From Acidobacteriaceae bacterium (GTDB taxonomy: Bacteria; Acidobacteriota; Terriglobia; Terriglobales; Acidobacteriaceae): a stretch of DNA of 64,000 nucleotides. How positions within the stretch are numbered: position 1 is the stretch's first letter; the number at the start of each line of letters is the position of its first letter. The translations under genes and the position numbers were made by a program. This document shows, piece by piece, positions 32,290 to 37,985 of this stretch. The DNA lies in NCBI GenBank assembly GCA_025350325.1, contig JANXYB010000005.1, forward strand, positions 1-64,000, read 5' to 3'. Below the pieces are notes generated by a model, which saw nothing but the letters and a program-made list of their open reading frames with translations, was not told the origin of the DNA and ran no database searches.

Positions 32290-32754
32290 TCACCCTGTCC
32301 ACCGCGAACTGACCGCGCCCTCAGCGTAATCGAAACTATTGCGCGGAATGACCGCACGCTCCGACCTGATAGCAAGGCGGGACGACGCAGCAAAGCCCTC
32401 GGGAGCTCTCGCTACCTGGCGCCACGCATCGCGCACTTTCCACACGCATGCGATCACATGCTCAAATTTTTCCTTGGAGTTGGCCTGCGACCCTTGCAGC
32501 ATGAGGGCAAACATTGCTACATAAAAATCAGCTAATGCCTCCGCGGGCTCGCCACCGATGTCCATCTGCAGAGTGGCTTGCAAATGAATCACGATATCCA
32601 TGGCCCGCTTGACAGCAGCCCGGCGCTGGCTCTCGTTTCCCTGCTCCACTGCGTCGATAGCATTGCGCATGAAACGGATAATACCGTCGTAAAGCGCCAT
32701 GGTCAGTTCCACGCCTGAGGCACCCTCAAGCGCACGCGTCTGGTACTGGTCCAT
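32290..32754 (-). CDS. fliS: Flagellar export chaperone FliS
   Basis: 154 residues from the ATG at 32754, where AGGAGC lies five bases upstream; the alternative ATG at 32772 is inside fliD. FliS binds the C-terminus of flagellin in the cytosol and prevents premature assembly. Features are the leading segment YQTRALEGASGVELTMALYD, the four-helix bundle and NESQRRAAVKRAMDIVIHLQ. It is the last gene of the fliC-fliD-fliS unit; only 8 bases separate its stop codon from that of the convergent ABC exporter gene. Confidence 0.9.
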   Translation of the reverse strand: MDQYQTRALEGASGVELTMALYDGIIRFMRNAIDAVEQGNESQRRAAVKRAMDIVIHLQATLQMDIGGEPAEALADFYVAMFALMLQGSQANSKEKFEHVIACVWKVRDAWRQVARAPEGFAASSRLAIRSERAVIPRNSFDYAEGAVSSRWTG

Positions 32755-32764
32755 CGGGATGCTC

Positions 32765-34204
32765 CTATCCATTGTTCTTGTTGTACCCTGTCACTGCGCT
32801 GTACATCTCGCTGACCTGCTGAATCATCTGGGGTATCGACTGCAGAATCTGGTTGGCCATATTCAGTTCCGTGGTCAGCCTCGTCTTTTGCGAAGCTATT
32901 AGCGCTTCCTGCTTAGAGACATTGTCGTTGAGCATCGTTTCTTGACTGCTGTTTTCGCTGCGTGCCAGGCTGATCGCGCCTCCAGACGCACCGCTATTCC
33001 CGAGACCGTTTAAAGTATTGGTGAAGGTCGATCCGAAGTTGCCGGTATCCTGAAAAAACGATACGACCTGGGCAAAGTTGCTGTTCAGCGCTGTGCTCAG
33101 CTTGTCGGCATCGAGGCTGATCGTGCCGTCCGCGCTCGCGTTGGCCGTGATGCCAAGAGAGATCAGCGAATTGATTCCATTGCTGCCAAACGACGAACTC
33201 ATGGCCGACAACAATCCCTGCTGTAGCTGGGCCAAAACTGATGTCCCGTACAGTGGCTCTGCATTGCCGGATGAGTCTTTACCTTCCTGCATATTCAGAG
33301 CTTTCATCGCGGCGTTGTAGTCCGTCACAAATGTGCTGATGGCGGTCTCGATGCTGGTCGTGTCGTTGGCAATCACGACCTGTATGCTCTCGGGCGTGGA
33401 ATTGCTGCCTGTACTACCCGCCGAAAGTAGTTGGAACGTCACACCCGGAATGGCGTTGGCGACAGTATTGGCGGCGCTGGTAAGTGTGACTCCATCCACT
33501 GTAATGGTCGCGTCGACGCCATCCTGAATGGTGGTCAGCCCCAGTCCCATGTTTTTGCCGGCAGTCGTTAAATCCGCCAGGGTCGTTGGGCTGCTTGGAT
33601 GGTTGCTGGAATTGGCAATTGTAATCTCGCCAGCCGCGCCACTGGTCTGGCTCACCAGAGAGAGACGCTCAGAACCGTCTGCATTGGTCAGTACGCTCGC
33701 GGTAACTCCGAGGGCAGCATTGTTGATCGCCGCAGACAGTCCGGAAAGCGTGGCCGCACTTGAACCGTTGCCTACGTTCACTGTCTGCCAGACACCTGTA
33801 CCGACCTTGAAAGTGATGCCGCCGGTAAGCACATCCGAGGCACTGACCGCATCCGATGCCGCACTTGACCTCTGCGCCAGGTTTTGCACCACAATCGTAT
33901 GTGTGCCGGCGACGGCTGCGGCACTGGCTGACGACAGGTTCAGCACGTTGGTGTTGGAACTCGATCCCGTCTTGTATGCCATGGTGCCGCTGAAGTCTGT
34001 CAGGTTCTGCAGGTCAGTCGATAACGTGGCAAACTGCGCGCCCAGGCTTGAGAGTGTAGTGTCTTTGCCGGTCAGAGCCGCCAATTGATTTTTCCAGGGG
34101 CTCTCTACGGTTTTTAAATTGGTCACAATTTGATTGACCGTGGCGGTTACGTCGAAGCCTTGTCCGCTGGTGGCGGAGCCGAAGTTTAAACCGACAGCAC
34201 CCAT
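32765..34204 (-). CDS. fliD: Flagellar filament cap protein FliD
   Basis: 479 residues from the ATG at 34204, which has GGGAGG upstream. FliD caps the growing filament and helps fold incoming flagellin. The N-terminus LNFGSATSGQGFDVTATVNQ followed by LKTVESPWKNQLAALTGKDT is typical of the coiled cap base, and the C-terminus has the conserved coiled-coil SSQETMLNDNVSKQEALIAS and LNMANQILQSIPQMIQQVSE. The middle domain (about 100-330) is the usual hypervariable part. It overlaps the alternative fliS start but not the preferred one, and is downstream of fliC on the same strand. Confidence 0.92.
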   Translation of the reverse strand: MGAVGLNFGSATSGQGFDVTATVNQIVTNLKTVESPWKNQLAALTGKDTTLSSLGAQFATLSTDLQNLTDFSGTMAYKTGSSSNTNVLNLSSASAAAVAGTHTIVVQNLAQRSSAASDAVSASDVLTGGITFKVGTGVWQTVNVGNGSSAATLSGLSAAINNAALGVTASVLTNADGSERLSLVSQTSGAAGEITIANSSNHPSSPTTLADLTTAGKNMGLGLTTIQDGVDATITVDGVTLTSAANTVANAIPGVTFQLLSAGSTGSNSTPESIQVVIANDTTSIETAISTFVTDYNAAMKALNMQEGKDSSGNAEPLYGTSVLAQLQQGLLSAMSSSFGSNGINSLISLGITANASADGTISLDADKLSTALNSNFAQVVSFFQDTGNFGSTFTNTLNGLGNSGASGGAISLARSENSSQETMLNDNVSKQEALIASQKTRLTTELNMANQILQSIPQMIQQVSEMYSAVTGYNKNNG

Positions 34205-34302
34205 AGTTGCCCTCCCTGTCACTCAACATCAGGTGAATGACCAAGCCACGTCTCAAAAGATTAGAAAAGACAAACAGCTCCAAGTTTGGCCCCAAAGCAA
34301 AA

Positions 34303-34349: not shown

Positions 34350-35801
34350 CTACTGCAGCAACTTCGTGATCAACTGCTGCGCCTGGTTAGCCTGCGACAG
34401 AGCGGCAATGCCGGTCTGGCTCAGAATTTGAAACTTCGACATGTCTGAAGTGGCCTGGCCATAGTCGGTCGCCGTCACATCGTTCATTGCGGCCAGGGTG
34501 TTGGTTGACTGCATGGTCATCACATTTCCGACCGCGGTCAGCGTGTTGATGTTCGCGCCCAGTGTGCCACGTGCCGCAGCAACGGTGGTGATTGCGGAGT
34601 TAATCGCCGTCAACGCAGCCTGTGCGCCGGCGGTGCTGGTCAAGTCGGTTCCCGCCAGCGAAAGCGCGCTGGAACTGGCCTGCACCATATCGGAGGACGC
34701 ATTGTTATAGGACTGCGAGATGGTTCCATCGGAGGTAAAGATGGCCACGGTCTGGTTTGCCTTACTGTTTGCAATCCCAGACTCTGTGACGTCTCCAGCC
34801 GCCGCCGAAATCGTGCCGCCCTTTACGTTCAGCGTGTTGGCTGAGACCGTAGCGTCTGCGCCGCTTGATCCAAACTGAGTGTTGATCTGTGCGGCGAGCT
34901 GATACAGGTTTCCCGTCCCAGCCGCGGCAAAATTAGTGATCGAGACAGCTGCGCCGCCCGTGGTGGTGAACTTAAGATCCGTGCTACCCACGGTGAGCGT
35001 GTCACTCGCGTTGCCGACTGTGAGCGATGCAGTACCACCGCTCGCGGTCGTCGGCACTTGAAGAGTGTCAGTCAGGTTTGCAATCGTACCCGTAAGTTTA
35101 GCGCCGCCACTCAGTACCAATTGGCTGCCTTGCACCGAAGCTACCGAAGCGCCGAACTGTGAGTTGATTTGACCGGCGAGCGTGGCGAGCGTGTCGGTAC
35201 CAGCGCCCACGGTATAGATGCCAGTTGCTCCGCTGGCTATCACGCCAGTTGTAGAGGCGTTGCCGCTTCCAGAATTTTCGAGTTTCAAAGTCTGCGTACC
35301 GTAAGTCACGGTCGCGATGTCCGTGGCTAAGGCGCCTACATCGATTTTGTCGGTGCTCTTGCCAACGGTGAACGCTGCATTCTTGGCAAATGTATTGATG
35401 CCGTTGTACTCGGTATTGTTGTTGATCGTGTCAGCCTCGGTGAGGATCTTCTGATATTCCGAATTGGCTGCGCTTACCTGACTCGAGTTCAGCGTACCGT
35501 TCGAGGCTTCGGTCGCCAGCGTAACAGCGCGATTGAGAAGGCTGGTTACCTGCGAAAGCGCGCCGTCGGCAACCTGCAAAAAGTCGACGCCTTCCGTCGC
35601 GTTCTTTGCCGACTGCGAGAGAGCGGTCGATGAAGCCTGCAGGCCATTGGCCAGCGAAAGACCGGCTGCATCGTCGGCGCCGGAATTGATGCGCGAACCG
35701 GAAGACAGCTGTTGAAGGGTTTTGGACAAAGAAGCCTGCGTATTTGCCAGGTTGTTCTGCGCGTAAATTGCATTGATGTTATTCAGGACACCCAAAGCCA
35801 T
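34350..35801 (-). CDS. fliC: Flagellin FliC
   Basis: 483 residues from the ATG at 35801, with AAGGAG upstream. The N-terminal D0/D1 helices (LGVLNNINAIYAQNNLANTQ to QLSSGSRINSGADDAAGLSL) and the C-terminal D0 (ALSQANQAQQLITKLLQ) are canonical flagellin. The centre (about 170-400) contains two related beta-rich segments, around AGQINSQFGASVASVQGSQL and AAQINTQFGSSGADATVSAN, suggesting an internal duplication in the surface domain. A sigma-28-like promoter is 125 bases upstream. It heads a fliC-fliD-fliS unit. Confidence 0.95.
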   Translation of the reverse strand: MALGVLNNINAIYAQNNLANTQASLSKTLQQLSSGSRINSGADDAAGLSLANGLQASSTALSQSAKNATEGVDFLQVADGALSQVTSLLNRAVTLATEASNGTLNSSQVSAANSEYQKILTEADTINNNTEYNGINTFAKNAAFTVGKSTDKIDVGALATDIATVTYGTQTLKLENSGSGNASTTGVIASGATGIYTVGAGTDTLATLAGQINSQFGASVASVQGSQLVLSGGAKLTGTIANLTDTLQVPTTASGGTASLTVGNASDTLTVGSTDLKFTTTGGAAVSITNFAAAGTGNLYQLAAQINTQFGSSGADATVSANTLNVKGGTISAAAGDVTESGIANSKANQTVAIFTSDGTISQSYNNASSDMVQASSSALSLAGTDLTSTAGAQAALTAINSAITTVAAARGTLGANINTLTAVGNVMTMQSTNTLAAMNDVTATDYGQATSDMSKFQILSQTGIAALSQANQAQQLITKLLQ

Positions 35802-35925
35802 GGAAATTCTCCTTAGAGTTGAAGTTTCGTTTTGGGTTCCTGCTTGGGGCACCGACCGGAATTGCGGGGGGTTTTTCACCGCCTGCCCGGACCACCTTGC
35901 TGAAGGAACCTTTTACCCACTGCCT

Positions 35926-35952
35926 TCATCGGCGACCTGTGAAAAGACTTTA
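35926..35952 (-). promoter_or_regulatory. Sigma-28 (FliA) promoter for fliC
   Basis: On the minus strand, TAAAGTCT (35952-35945) and GCCGATGA (35933-35926) are separated by 11 bases, matching the FliA consensus TAAAGTTT-N11-GCCGATAA at all but two positions. Transcription would begin near 35919, giving a leader of about 118 bases before the fliC ATG. The leader contains an inverted repeat GGTTCCT/AGGAACC (35835-35841 and 35904-35910 on plus) of unknown role. Confidence 0.8.
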
Positions 35953-36008
35953 TGAGTTTTCGACTACAGCTTCCGACTACGCTCTTTCATCACTAAATTT
36001 CTACTTGC

Positions 36009-36016
36009 GCCGATAA
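36009..36016 (+). promoter_or_regulatory. Possible sigma-28 -10 element for flbD-motA-motB
   Basis: A perfect GCCGATAA lies 33 bases before the flbD ATG on the plus strand. TAAATTT at 35994 is the best -35-like sequence but at 11 instead of 15 bases from it, so the -35 is imperfect and this promoter is less certain than the fliC one. It would make flbD, motA and motB divergently co-regulated with flagellin. Confidence 0.5.
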
Positions 36017-36048
36017 CTAACTTGACGCCGCAGGAGGTCTGGCAGCGA

Positions 36049-36348
36049 ATGATCGAACTAACCCGGCTAAACGGCAATCCAATGGTGCTGAATAGCGATC
36101 TCATCAAGACCGCCGAAGCCTCACCAGACACCATGCTGACGCTTATCAACGGAGAGAAGCTCATCGTGCGCGAGGCTCTCAACGAAGTCTTGGAACGCGT
36201 GCTTGCGTATCGGGCGCGCTTGCTGGCGACGGTCGCTCGCCGTTTGTTTATCAACGACGACATCGAGCAACTCGCTTCCCTGGCCGACATTGAAGTCTCC
36301 CGGCAGTCGATTCCGTTCGCAGCTATCAAGCCAACCTCAGGTCGCTGA
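36049..36348 (+). CDS. flbD: Flagellar protein FlbD
   Basis: 99 residues from the ATG at 36049, which has GCAGGAGG upstream; the start MIELTRLNGNPMVLNSDLIK is the usual beginning of this small family. These proteins accompany the motor genes in many bacteria (commonly just before motA), with unknown detailed role. The segment TLINGEKLIVREALNEVLER is diagnostic; the tail after residue 65 is longer than in Firmicutes FlbD, with several Arg residues, a minor variation. It sits 51 bases before motA. Confidence 0.85.
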   Translation: MIELTRLNGNPMVLNSDLIKTAEASPDTMLTLINGEKLIVREALNEVLERVLAYRARLLATVARRLFINDDIEQLASLADIEVSRQSIPFAAIKPTSGR

Positions 36349-36399
36349 TCATGAAAGACAAAATATGCAATGAGTTCAACGTAATAAGAGGACCCTTCC

Positions 36400-37173
36400 A
36401 TGGATAAGGCGAGTGTCGGCGGAGTGATTCTCGCCATAGTGGGGATCGTTGCCGGCCTGCTGATTGAGGGCGGCAACCTGAGCCAAATATTTCAGCCCAC
36501 GGCAGCCCTGATCGTCTTTGGCGGCACGATGGGAGCGGTTCTGCTTCAATTCCCGCTTGCTACCGTTACCGCCGCGTTTCGCAGCCTGGCCCGCGTTTTC
36601 ATTGAGCCCGGCAAGCCGAACGACCAACTCGTACGCCAACTCATCGCCTTCGCAAATAAGGCTCGGCGCAGTGGGGTAGTCTCACTCGATGCGGATTTAA
36701 AGTCGATTCAAGATCCGTTTCTCAAGCAATCGATCATGCTCGCCGTCGATGGCACCGAGCCGGCAGAGTTGCGCAAGATCATGCGCGTCACGCTCGATTG
36801 CACCTCGGAGAACGAAGAGCGTTTGCCCGCCGTCTTTGAATCGGCAGGCGGCTTCTCACCCACCATCGGCATACTCGGCGCCGTATTGGGTCTGATACAG
36901 GTAATGCAGCACCTCGACAACATCACTGAAGTAGGGCGCGGTATAGCCGTCGCTTTTGTGGCCACAATTTACGGCGTGGGCATCGCCAATCTATTCTTCC
37001 TGCCCTTCGCAGGCAAAATGCGCATCCAGTTACGCGATGAGCATCTGCGCCGCGAAATGATGTTGGAAGGCGTGATATCTATCCTAGAGGGCATCAACCC
37101 ACGCATGCTCGAAGTCAAGCTATCAGGTTTTCTTGAAGACTCCAAGCTACCGAAGAAAGAACGGGCCGCATGA
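36400..37173 (+). CDS. motA: Flagellar motor stator protein MotA
   Basis: 257 residues with four transmembrane segments: two near the N-terminus (GGVILAIVGIVAGLLIEGGN and LIVFGGTMGAVLLQFPLATV) and two near residues 150-205 (GFSPTIGILGAVLGLIQVMQ and GRGIAVAFVATIYGVGIANL). The large cytoplasmic loop contains RKIMRVTLDCTSENEERLPA. The Pro-containing motif FSPTIGILGAVLGLIQVMQ is the MotA/PomA stator signature. It overlaps motB by four bases (ATGA), so they are coupled. Confidence 0.96.
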   Translation: MDKASVGGVILAIVGIVAGLLIEGGNLSQIFQPTAALIVFGGTMGAVLLQFPLATVTAAFRSLARVFIEPGKPNDQLVRQLIAFANKARRSGVVSLDADLKSIQDPFLKQSIMLAVDGTEPAELRKIMRVTLDCTSENEERLPAVFESAGGFSPTIGILGAVLGLIQVMQHLDNITEVGRGIAVAFVATIYGVGIANLFFLPFAGKMRIQLRDEHLRREMMLEGVISILEGINPRMLEVKLSGFLEDSKLPKKERAA

Positions 37174-37985
37174 CGCCTCGCATTCAGCGCAGCCGGGTAA
37201 CGCAGGAACGCTGGCTGGTTTCCTATGCCGACTTCATCACGCTGCTCTTCGCATTCTTCGTCGTCCTATACGCGTTTGAGAAGGCGGACCACAAAAAGCA
37301 GGCGCAAATTCCCGTCGCTATCGACGCAGCCTTCAAATCCCTGGGAGCTTTTCCCATCGCAATAGGGTGGCCTGCGAGTGGCCTCCGCAACGCTTCGGTA
37401 ACGCAGCAGGCCGTGATCCCTCTGGATGTCGTTATGCGCGAAAATATTGTATCGCCTGCGAGAGTCAAAAGTGATCTTGAACAGATGCGTCGTGAATTGG
37501 AACAGTCTCTATCAGCCGCCATCGCTCAACACACCGTGTCGCTCCAGATGGGCCGGGGTGGATTGATCATAAGCCTTCGCGAGGCTGGATTCTTCGACTC
37601 TGGATCGGCAGTTCCTCACCCTGAAACGTCGGGCACGCTCCACATCATTGCCGATTCGCTCCGGCGCACATCCTACAACGTGCGCGTTGAGGGACACACA
37701 GACAATGTACCGATTCACAACACCGACTTCGATTCAAACTGGGAATTATCCTCGGCGCGCGCCACACGCATTGCCCGACTGATGCTCGAAATTAACGCTA
37801 CCCCTCCCGAGCGTCTCTCGGCCGCGGGGTACGCTGAGTTCCACCCGATTGCCGACAATGGAACAGCGGGGGGCAGAGCCGACAATCGCCGCGTCGATCT
37901 AGTCGTAATGCCGCGCTCCGAGATCGACCTTTCCAGTCCCGATCCAGCAACGTCCGGTCCATGGAAAAAAGTTACAGATAACTAG
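37170..37985 (+). CDS. motB: Flagellar motor stator protein MotB
   Basis: 271 residues. One transmembrane helix near the N-terminus holds the essential proton-conducting Asp in SYADFITLLFAFFVVLYAF. The C-terminal OmpA-type peptidoglycan-binding domain contains VRVEGHTDNVPIHNTDFDSN and ELSSARATRIARLMLE. Start ATG overlaps the motA stop codon. With motA it forms the stator; no other motor or basal-body genes are in the window. Confidence 0.96.
   Translation: MTPRIQRSRVTQERWLVSYADFITLLFAFFVVLYAFEKADHKKQAQIPVAIDAAFKSLGAFPIAIGWPASGLRNASVTQQAVIPLDVVMRENIVSPARVKSDLEQMRRELEQSLSAAIAQHTVSLQMGRGGLIISLREAGFFDSGSAVPHPETSGTLHIIADSLRRTSYNVRVEGHTDNVPIHNTDFDSNWELSSARATRIARLMLEINATPPERLSAAGYAEFHPIADNGTAGGRADNRRVDLVVMPRSEIDLSSPDPATSGPWKKVTDN

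Follow-up and report, generated by a model that had tools for sequence, protein, structure and literature searches.

Several described systems bear on the way in which the filament and stator genes of a flagellum are controlled here. Acidobacteriota are common soil bacteria; a search of the open-licence literature for papers that map transcript starts in Acidobacteria by dRNA-seq gave none, and flagellar control in this phylum seems little studied at that level. In Pseudomonas aeruginosa, the flagellin gene and fliD of the a-type and b-type are exchanged by recombination. The name flbD is known from Caulobacter, where it denotes a sigma-54 activator with AAA+ and receiver domains. A flagellin leader is the target of CsrA-FliW, which exerts post-transcriptional control of flagellin synthesis in Bacillus and Campylobacter; the flg-Rhizobiales RNA motif sits before flagellin genes, and a 5' stem-loop like that of ompA protects mRNA from decay. 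FlbT acts on the fliC 5' UTR in Caulobacter and Brucella (PMC4347634), the flg-Rhizobiales motif RF01736 is a candidate cis-regulatory RNA (PMC2864571) and SwrD of Bacillus subtilis raises the power of the flagellar motor (PMC9195833, citing Hall 2018). The consensus of FliA (sigma-28), TAAAGTTT-N11-GCCGATAA, is printed in PMC2859248 and PMC7286023, the first of which also describes the activation of a sigma-28 promoter by CRP in E. coli.

The window, that is the whole stretch of 64,000 nucleotides that was analyzed, belongs to contig C15 of a genome of 4.49 Mb, which is 99% complete. Among named contigs, the closest relatives of its MotA belong to Acidobacteriaceae and to unclassified Acidobacteriota. 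The genes fliC, fliD and fliS run leftward and flbD (PF06289), motA and motB rightward. The 247 bp between the ATG of fliC (35801) and that of flbD (36049) contain both promoter sites. The features of the locus are:

32290 to 32772, minus strand: fliS, flagellin chaperone, end of the filament cassette (PF02561, E 6e-27; TIGR00208 over its cut-off)
32765 to 34222, minus strand: fliD, filament cap (PF07195, PF02465)
34350 to 35801, minus strand: fliC, flagellin, ATG at 35801 (PF00669, PF00700; Shine-Dalgarno at 35809 to 35814)
35809 to 35814, minus strand: fliC Shine-Dalgarno AAGGAG, not included in the stem that closes the leader (sequence)
35834 to 35913, minus strand: fliC 5' leader RNA, proposed conserved structured core, class A (covariance model R2, consensus fold)
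35926 to 35933, minus strand: putative sigma-28 -10 octamer of fliC, GCCGATGA (sequence; conserved)
35945 to 35952, minus strand: putative sigma-28 -35 octamer of fliC, TAAAGTCT, N11 from the -10 (sequence; spacer conservation)
35990 to 35997, plus strand: putative -35 region of flbD, TCACTAAA, degenerate, first three bases fitting the family profile
36009 to 36016, plus strand: putative sigma-28 -10 octamer of flbD, GCCGATAA (sequence; conserved)
36032 to 36037, plus strand: flbD Shine-Dalgarno AGGAGG (sequence)
36049 to 36348, plus strand: flbD, SwrD-type small flagellar protein (PF06289, E 2e-25)
36400 to 37173, plus strand: motA, stator (PF01618; NF006583 over its cut-off)
37170 to 37985, plus strand: motB, stator (PF13677, PF00691)

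We consider it likely that three elements are joined at this locus, namely divergent FliA promoters, a structured flagellin leader and a travelling filament cassette. Two FliA (sigma-28) promoters would lie back to back between fliC and flbD, the leftward one driving the filament cassette, fliC and then fliD and fliS, the rightward one flbD-motA-motB. Filament and stator would thus be turned on together, late in assembly, upon release of FlgM. The fliC transcript would start with a leader of about 80 nt whose conserved structure is closed shortly before the ribosome-binding site and leaves it uncovered, and promoter, leader and fliC-fliD-fliS would travel between genera by recombination. The promoter pair is supported by the sequence of the sites, by their conserved position and direction and by the presence of fliA and flgM. 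From these data we infer the start sites, the dependence on FliA and the late timing of both operons, and hence a single late-flagellar control point for filament and stator.

The site facing fliC, at 35926 to 35952 on the minus strand, reads TAAAGTCT-TTTCACAGGTC-GCCGATGA and agrees with the consensus at 14 of 16 positions, with a spacer of exactly N11. A previous reading of the sequence only had described it as close to the FliA consensus, which our comparison confirmed. It was the sole match of at least 13/16 in the 64 kb window when spacers of 10 to 12 were allowed, and one of two matches of at least 14/16 genome-wide with spacer 11. The distance from the edge of its -35 to the -10 of flbD is 56 bp, in agreement with the earlier estimate that both promoters lie within about 60 bases, and 75 bp separate the two -10 boxes.

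A perfect GCCGATAA had also been reported to face flbD, and it was indeed present at 36009 to 36016 on the plus strand (8/8), 32 nt before the ATG. As the start of flbD we retained ATG 36049. TTG 36022, the start in a mechanical list of open reading frames, was rejected because the protein read from 36049 is matched by Pfam from its first residue on, AGGAGG is placed at 36032-36037 and an ATG stands at the homologous codon in 120 of 129 family places, window included. The sequence-only reading had further stated that the flbD side lacks a well-placed -35. This -35 is weak, as stated, but ordinary for the family: when scored with a leave-one-out matrix, the 20 nt ahead of the -10, with TCACTAAAT in the place of the -35, stood at the 54th percentile among 104 sites, so that the "missing" -35 is the family's usual weak one. 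The score was reached by 0.2% of random 20-mers and by 6.4% of shuffles of the same 20 nt.

The product of flbD has 99 amino acids and matches PF06289 with 88.4 bits (cut-off 24.7), its sole Pfam match at E<=0.001. We take PF06289 to be the family of B. subtilis SwrD (YlzI), and the search matched the B. subtilis control genome. The AAA+ and receiver domains of a Caulobacter-type FlbD were not found in this protein. The gene named flbD before encodes a SwrD-type protein, not a transcription regulator. A torque factor that shares an operon with the stator would make sense.

PF06289 was present in 125 of 250 genomes of the family Acidobacteriaceae, and all 129 places, made up of the window, 30 loci and 98 stretches, were read. 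Two such places were found in each of four genomes (G028, G045, G152, G247), possibly a sign of two flagellar sets. In 114 of the 129 places fliC lies divergently upstream of flbD; some of the other 15 are at contig ends or are second copies. GCCGATAA occurred at 7/8 or better, 10-95 nt before flbD, in 104/129 places compared with 3.8 in shuffles, at a median of 26 nt before the ATG, and did not occur in the searched strip of the other 25. When counted in the promoter strip (-73 to +20), it was found in 102/129 places versus 0-11 in 23 other strips of the same strand. On the opposite strand, coding strips also reached high counts by codon conservation, up to 33/127 in motA, and the non-coding counts are therefore those that matter. 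A fliC-facing site of at least 12/16 was detected anywhere in the intergenic region in 87/114 places (1.0 in shuffles), and 76/114 had both sites at these cut-offs.

Named contigs, among them those of Edaphobacter, Granulicella, Acidicapsa and Acidipila strains, enlarged this set. Of 80 loci, 71 had flbD and a near divergent fliC (2 were lost to distance and 7 to a missing match), and 49 were kept after removal of sequences already in the set. This made 163 intergenic regions in all, which represent 161 different sequences. Both sites were present in 136/163 at slightly looser cut-offs, and the spacer of the fliC site was N11 in 123 of these 136. In the 136 regions, the lengths between the edge of the fliC -35 and the -10 of flbD cluster near 55, 67, 75 and 100 bp. 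We do not claim a helical phasing between the promoters (R(10.5) 0.32, p 0.002), since the 84 cluster representatives are not independent by descent. Outside the family, 28 of 33 genomes of the phylum with a match were read and 5 of the 28, without flbD by tblastn, were dropped. In the 23 readable places flbD and motA were together in 20 and a divergent fliC lay within the stretch examined in 1, so that the flbD-motA linkage extends past the family whereas a near divergent fliC was rarely seen there. In one of the dropped loci (L269), about 2.3 kb separate motA from a divergent fliC. Read by eye, GCCGATAT precedes flbD in 5/23 places, all in other families of the phylum (L256, L258, L259, L273, L276), and in 4 of these 5 the -35 letters resemble TAAC or TAAG, with a spacer of about N12.

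The sequence-only reading had made its case depend on a fliA homologue in the genome. One was present on contig C150, between fliM and a putative flhA read from its translation alone: a FliA/WhiG sigma factor matching TIGR02479 with 232 bits (cut-off 189.6). FlgM was found as well (PF04316, 40.5 bits), and TACAGTTA-N11-GCCGATAG precedes its gene. Among flgM genes of the family, 25 of the 29 scored, the own one included, had a site of at least 12/16, where 0.7 were expected. For this set, 30 of 44 places became loci and the own one was added; 2 of the 31 were unscorable, and the lowest-scoring one (L333) was probably read on the wrong strand, strands having been guessed from the motif. A chemoreceptor (MCP) gene on contig C62 is preceded by TCAAGTTC-N11-GCCGATAA (G000:C62:37312-37338, L147). 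The motif, which the sequence-only reading had proposed to search for at other flagellar genes, was found at flgM and MCP but was not enriched in the genome, which had 30 sites with at most 3 mismatches versus 51 in a reversed control. Most motif sites of the own genome are therefore chance, only those of fliC, MCP and flgM were taken as real, and the relatives were used as evidence. Another site, TAAAGTCG-N11-GCCGATAG (L155, G000:C72:4464-4490), precedes a small open reading frame without Pfam match within longer open frames; it is probably due to chance and was set aside.

In the aligned relatives, conservation does not stop at the -10 of fliC but extends as far as the ribosome-binding site, and this leader pairs at its two ends. 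In the window, the closing stem P1 joins GGUUCCU (35904-35910) to AGGAACC (35835-35841), is present in the minimum free energy fold and closes upstream of AAGGAG, leaving the ribosome-binding site free; the inner stems are of the GGUG/CACC and CCGG/CCGG type. The fold energy of the window leader was not unusual (z +0.68, with 155/200 shuffles folding as well), and relatives gave z -1.74 (L060) and -0.87 (L113). The evidence for the leader is therefore conservation and not stability. Three classes, together 82 of the 163 leaders, were aligned: A (17 of the 52 with GGTTCC), B (42 of 49) and C (23 picked by eye from 62 others). The other 81 are outside the alignments, and the statements on like folding thus concern the 82.

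Class A, to which the window belongs, folds into P1 (GGUUCCU/AGGAACC), P2 (GGUG/CACC) and P3 (CCGG/CCGG). In P2, C-G replaces U-A in 5/17 members, a compensatory change. Pairing was possible in 94.8% of cells, compared with 25.7-59.8% in slid versions, and none of 500 shuffles reached the covariation score; cells and pair types were also above shuffles. Pairs changing on both sides numbered 2, which was not above shuffles (442/500). The cores measure 65-85 nt, the P1 letters barely vary within the class, and inner positions of the consensus, near AAGGTGA-CCGG and CCGGTCAGGCACCCGAAGC, are conserved as well. In class B, GATGCG/CGCATC was found by the fold and the inner helix RCGG/CCGY was added by eye before counting. 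Here 94.5% of cells were paired versus 17.9-37.3% in slid controls. Four pairs changed on both sides (1.7 in shuffles; 2/500 reach that), as did 14 cells (3.8 in shuffles), with 0/500 shuffles reaching the cells or the score, and the inner P1 pair changes from G-C to A-U in 5/42. Class B comprises 9 of the 11 flbD-bearing genomes of the genus of the window, plus some others; its alignment leaves out 7 longer or variant leaders of the 49, all of which were found by the class B model R3. Class C has CGCG/CGCG, whose inner pair is A-U in 6/23, as well as GCC/GGC-type and GGU/ACC helices. Its 6 double changes, all at one P1 pair, were counted without shuffle control. Its 8 members with a genus name are all Edaphobacter or Granulicella.

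Covariance models, whose scores for R1 and R2 combine sequence and structure, were then compared across the classes. R1 is the class A model. R2 was built from 13 sequences with the genus of the window left out and has 14 pairs, its own fold shortening P1 to 3 pairs. R2 recovered the window leader at E 7.8e-10, L113 at 1.3e-13, L182 at 2.1e-15 and L200 at 0.0017, and furthermore, at 4.5e-7, a fliC leader from a genome that has fliC apart from flbD. When R1 was run on 120 family genomes, 15 of them yielded a total of 16 matches at E<=0.05: 10 training leaders, 2 untrained fliC leaders, one of them (L348) from a genome with fliC not next to flbD, and 4 weak matches away from fliC (E 0.004-0.027). 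The own genome had a single R1 match, the fliC leader of the window. R1 found 11 of the 22 class C members given to it untrained (E 4e-5 to 0.034) and R2 11/23 (3e-5 to 0.003), so that about half of class C was missed by both. R2 gave no leader match in class B loci, L019 or L021; R1 did not recognize class B except for L190 at E 0.8, and R3 matched no class A or C leader. The models thus link class A with about half of class C and do not link class B, which gave no cross-match and for this reason was modelled apart. No Rfam 15 family, flg-Rhizobiales included, matched at E<=1 in 35600-36400 of the window or in the loci of 7 relatives. By its compensatory changes and by the model built without the genus, the fliC leader is a conserved structured RNA, which we propose as a new family. 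It is apparently undescribed so far; in the open-licence literature we found nothing naming this leader or the promoter pair.

A palindrome, TGTCC-N6/7-GGACA, lies midway between the promoters in class B relatives (L060, L076, L174, L187 and others). With at most one mismatch it occurred in 33/50 class B regions versus 0/113 other intergenic regions, and of 19 inspected loci with the exact GTGTCC-N6/7-GGACAC in 59 genomes of the genus, 9 were at the fliC-flbD locus. Its 5-6-5 spacing resembles that of a CRP-type site, and it is a possible candidate operator. It is absent from the window, being confined to class B, and was not retained as a part of the locus.

The window, L113 (G229), L182 and L200 have class A leaders, yet their stator genes fall within a clade of mostly class B; for L182, L200 and the other named contigs, genus membership was inferred from MotA. 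Protein identities were compared between the window and same-genus class B genomes (means) on the one hand and G019, from another genus, on the other. Outside the filament genes, the window was closer to its genus: 82.6 (n=7) versus 68 for the ABC neighbor, 84.9 (n=9) versus 78 for flbD, 78.4 (n=9) versus 66 for motA and 87.2 (n=5) versus 84 for a YjbQ-like neighbor. The filament genes were closer to G019: fliS 59.6 (n=7) versus 69, fliD 53.4 (n=8) versus 62, the N-terminal part of fliC 73.6 (n=9) versus 82 and its C-terminal part 60.4 (n=9) versus 82. The means for class A genomes of other genera were 57.7 for fliS, 53.8 for fliD, 76.2 for fliC N and 65.4 for fliC C; since not all of them are so close, the exchange partner would be near G019 and G089. 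A tree of flbD and motA (31 rows) kept the genus together with SH-aLRT 100, and class A members stood in three places within it, scattered by branches without strong support. A tree of fliC (30 rows) joined the window, L113, L182 and L200 at 100 to L358, L362, L365 and L369 of other genera. L365 is in this group although the pattern used does not assign its short leader to class A. Supports are SH-aLRT values from quick tree searches, or from FastTree, and fliS and fliD were compared by identity only. The exchanged block would thus comprise fliS-fliD-fliC with leader and promoter, a probable cassette passed from genus to genus, and flbD-motA-motB follows the genus. One putative junction lies between the promoter of fliC and the codons of flbD, the other between fliS and the ABC-transporter gene. 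This qualifies the single control point, because the two halves can part in evolution: the filament half and its control region appear to have been exchanged between genera, the stator half not.

Other explanations have to be weighed. Conceivably, only fliC has a FliA promoter, and GCCGATAA before flbD is a chance occurrence or a relic, with flbD-motA-motB transcribed from a sigma-70 or other promoter. The degenerate -35 and the 25 of 129 places without a good -10 in the strip would fit this. We nevertheless regard it as very unlikely in view of the counts of the -10 before flbD, far above those of shuffles and of other same-strand strips, and of GCCGATAT before flbD in other families of the phylum; moreover, no sigma-70-like site was detected in 35780-36420. 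As for the cassette, the class A filament genes could be an old allele retained within the genus after duplication and differential loss, without any transfer. Class A does occur in several genera, an ancient pair of alleles could persist, and the starred branches of the stator tree force at most one class A origin in the genus. Retention would, however, require loss in most other lineages, and it has to accommodate a window fliC nearer to G019 at both ends (82%) than to the nine same-genus members of class B (at most 76 and 64) between flanks that are both closer to the genus. Holding the genus together in the fliC tree cost 66 log units and was rejected by the AU test (p 0.00215). We consider retention improbable, if somewhat less so than a lone fliC promoter, and favor exchange of the cassette.

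The paired blocks of the leader might also be read as DNA, either as protein-binding repeats or as conservation of the initial transcribed sequence. The 5' arm is close to the probable start site, P1 is nearly invariant inside class A and the fold energy in the window is ordinary. This reading has in our opinion a slim chance, since the arms are set apart by a stretch of variable length, compensatory changes occurred in all three classes (P1 of B and C, P2 of A) and slid versions of classes A and B lost their pairing. With the leader taken as RNA, it would either stabilize the flagellin mRNA or be the target of a regulator replacing CsrA-FliW. CsrA was found in 0/80 family genomes searched, and neither CsrA nor FliW nor FlbT in the source genome, with searches that do match in control genomes; these three were thus discarded as regulators of the leader. 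Their absence from the source genome, together with the position of P1 near the probable 5' end and the free ribosome-binding site, would suit a plain 5' stem-loop like that of ompA, guarding an abundant flagellin mRNA from decay without any regulator. This is a serious possibility on which we would still hesitate to settle, because the conserved inner letters (AAGGTGA-CCGG, CCGGTCAGGCACCCGAAGC) exceed the needs of a plain stem. More tentatively, and on balance unlikely in all its parts, the leader would be a new regulatory RNA in place of CsrA-FliW, whose core is bound by a flagellar protein that couples flagellin translation to assembly. Each filament cassette would then carry its leader along, so that whole filaments could be swapped between genera, perhaps under phage pressure, and leave the stator operon undisturbed. 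Between an element protecting the mRNA and the target of another regulator, we judge the chances about equal.

The locus offers a late-gene control point that can be tested. In a family where CsrA was found in 0/80 genomes searched, a structured leader raises the question how the balance of flagellin is kept, and the exchange of the cassette suggests that the filament may be replaced along with the region that controls it. A promoter pair of this kind is nothing unusual, whereas the leader is new, and the leader together with its travel in the filament cassette merits follow-up.

When compared to known FliA promoters, the octamers and the N11 spacing on the fliC side and the -10 octamer on the flbD side are alike, whereas the weak -35 on the flbD side and the back-to-back control of fliC and swrD-motA-motB, kept in 114/129 family places, are different. 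With B. subtilis SwrD, the protein shares the family PF06289, but here its gene heads a motA-motB operon. The leader differs from the target of CsrA-FliW in being a different RNA, in a family with no CsrA in 80/80 genomes and in a genome with no FliW. Like the FlbT system it concerns a flagellin leader, although without FlbT in the source genome, and it differs from flg-Rhizobiales RF01736 in its taxa and in the lack of an Rfam match. As in the exchange of flagellin and fliD in P. aeruginosa, the flagellin and cap genes would be replaced together; unlike there, the promoter and a structured leader would travel along, and across genera.
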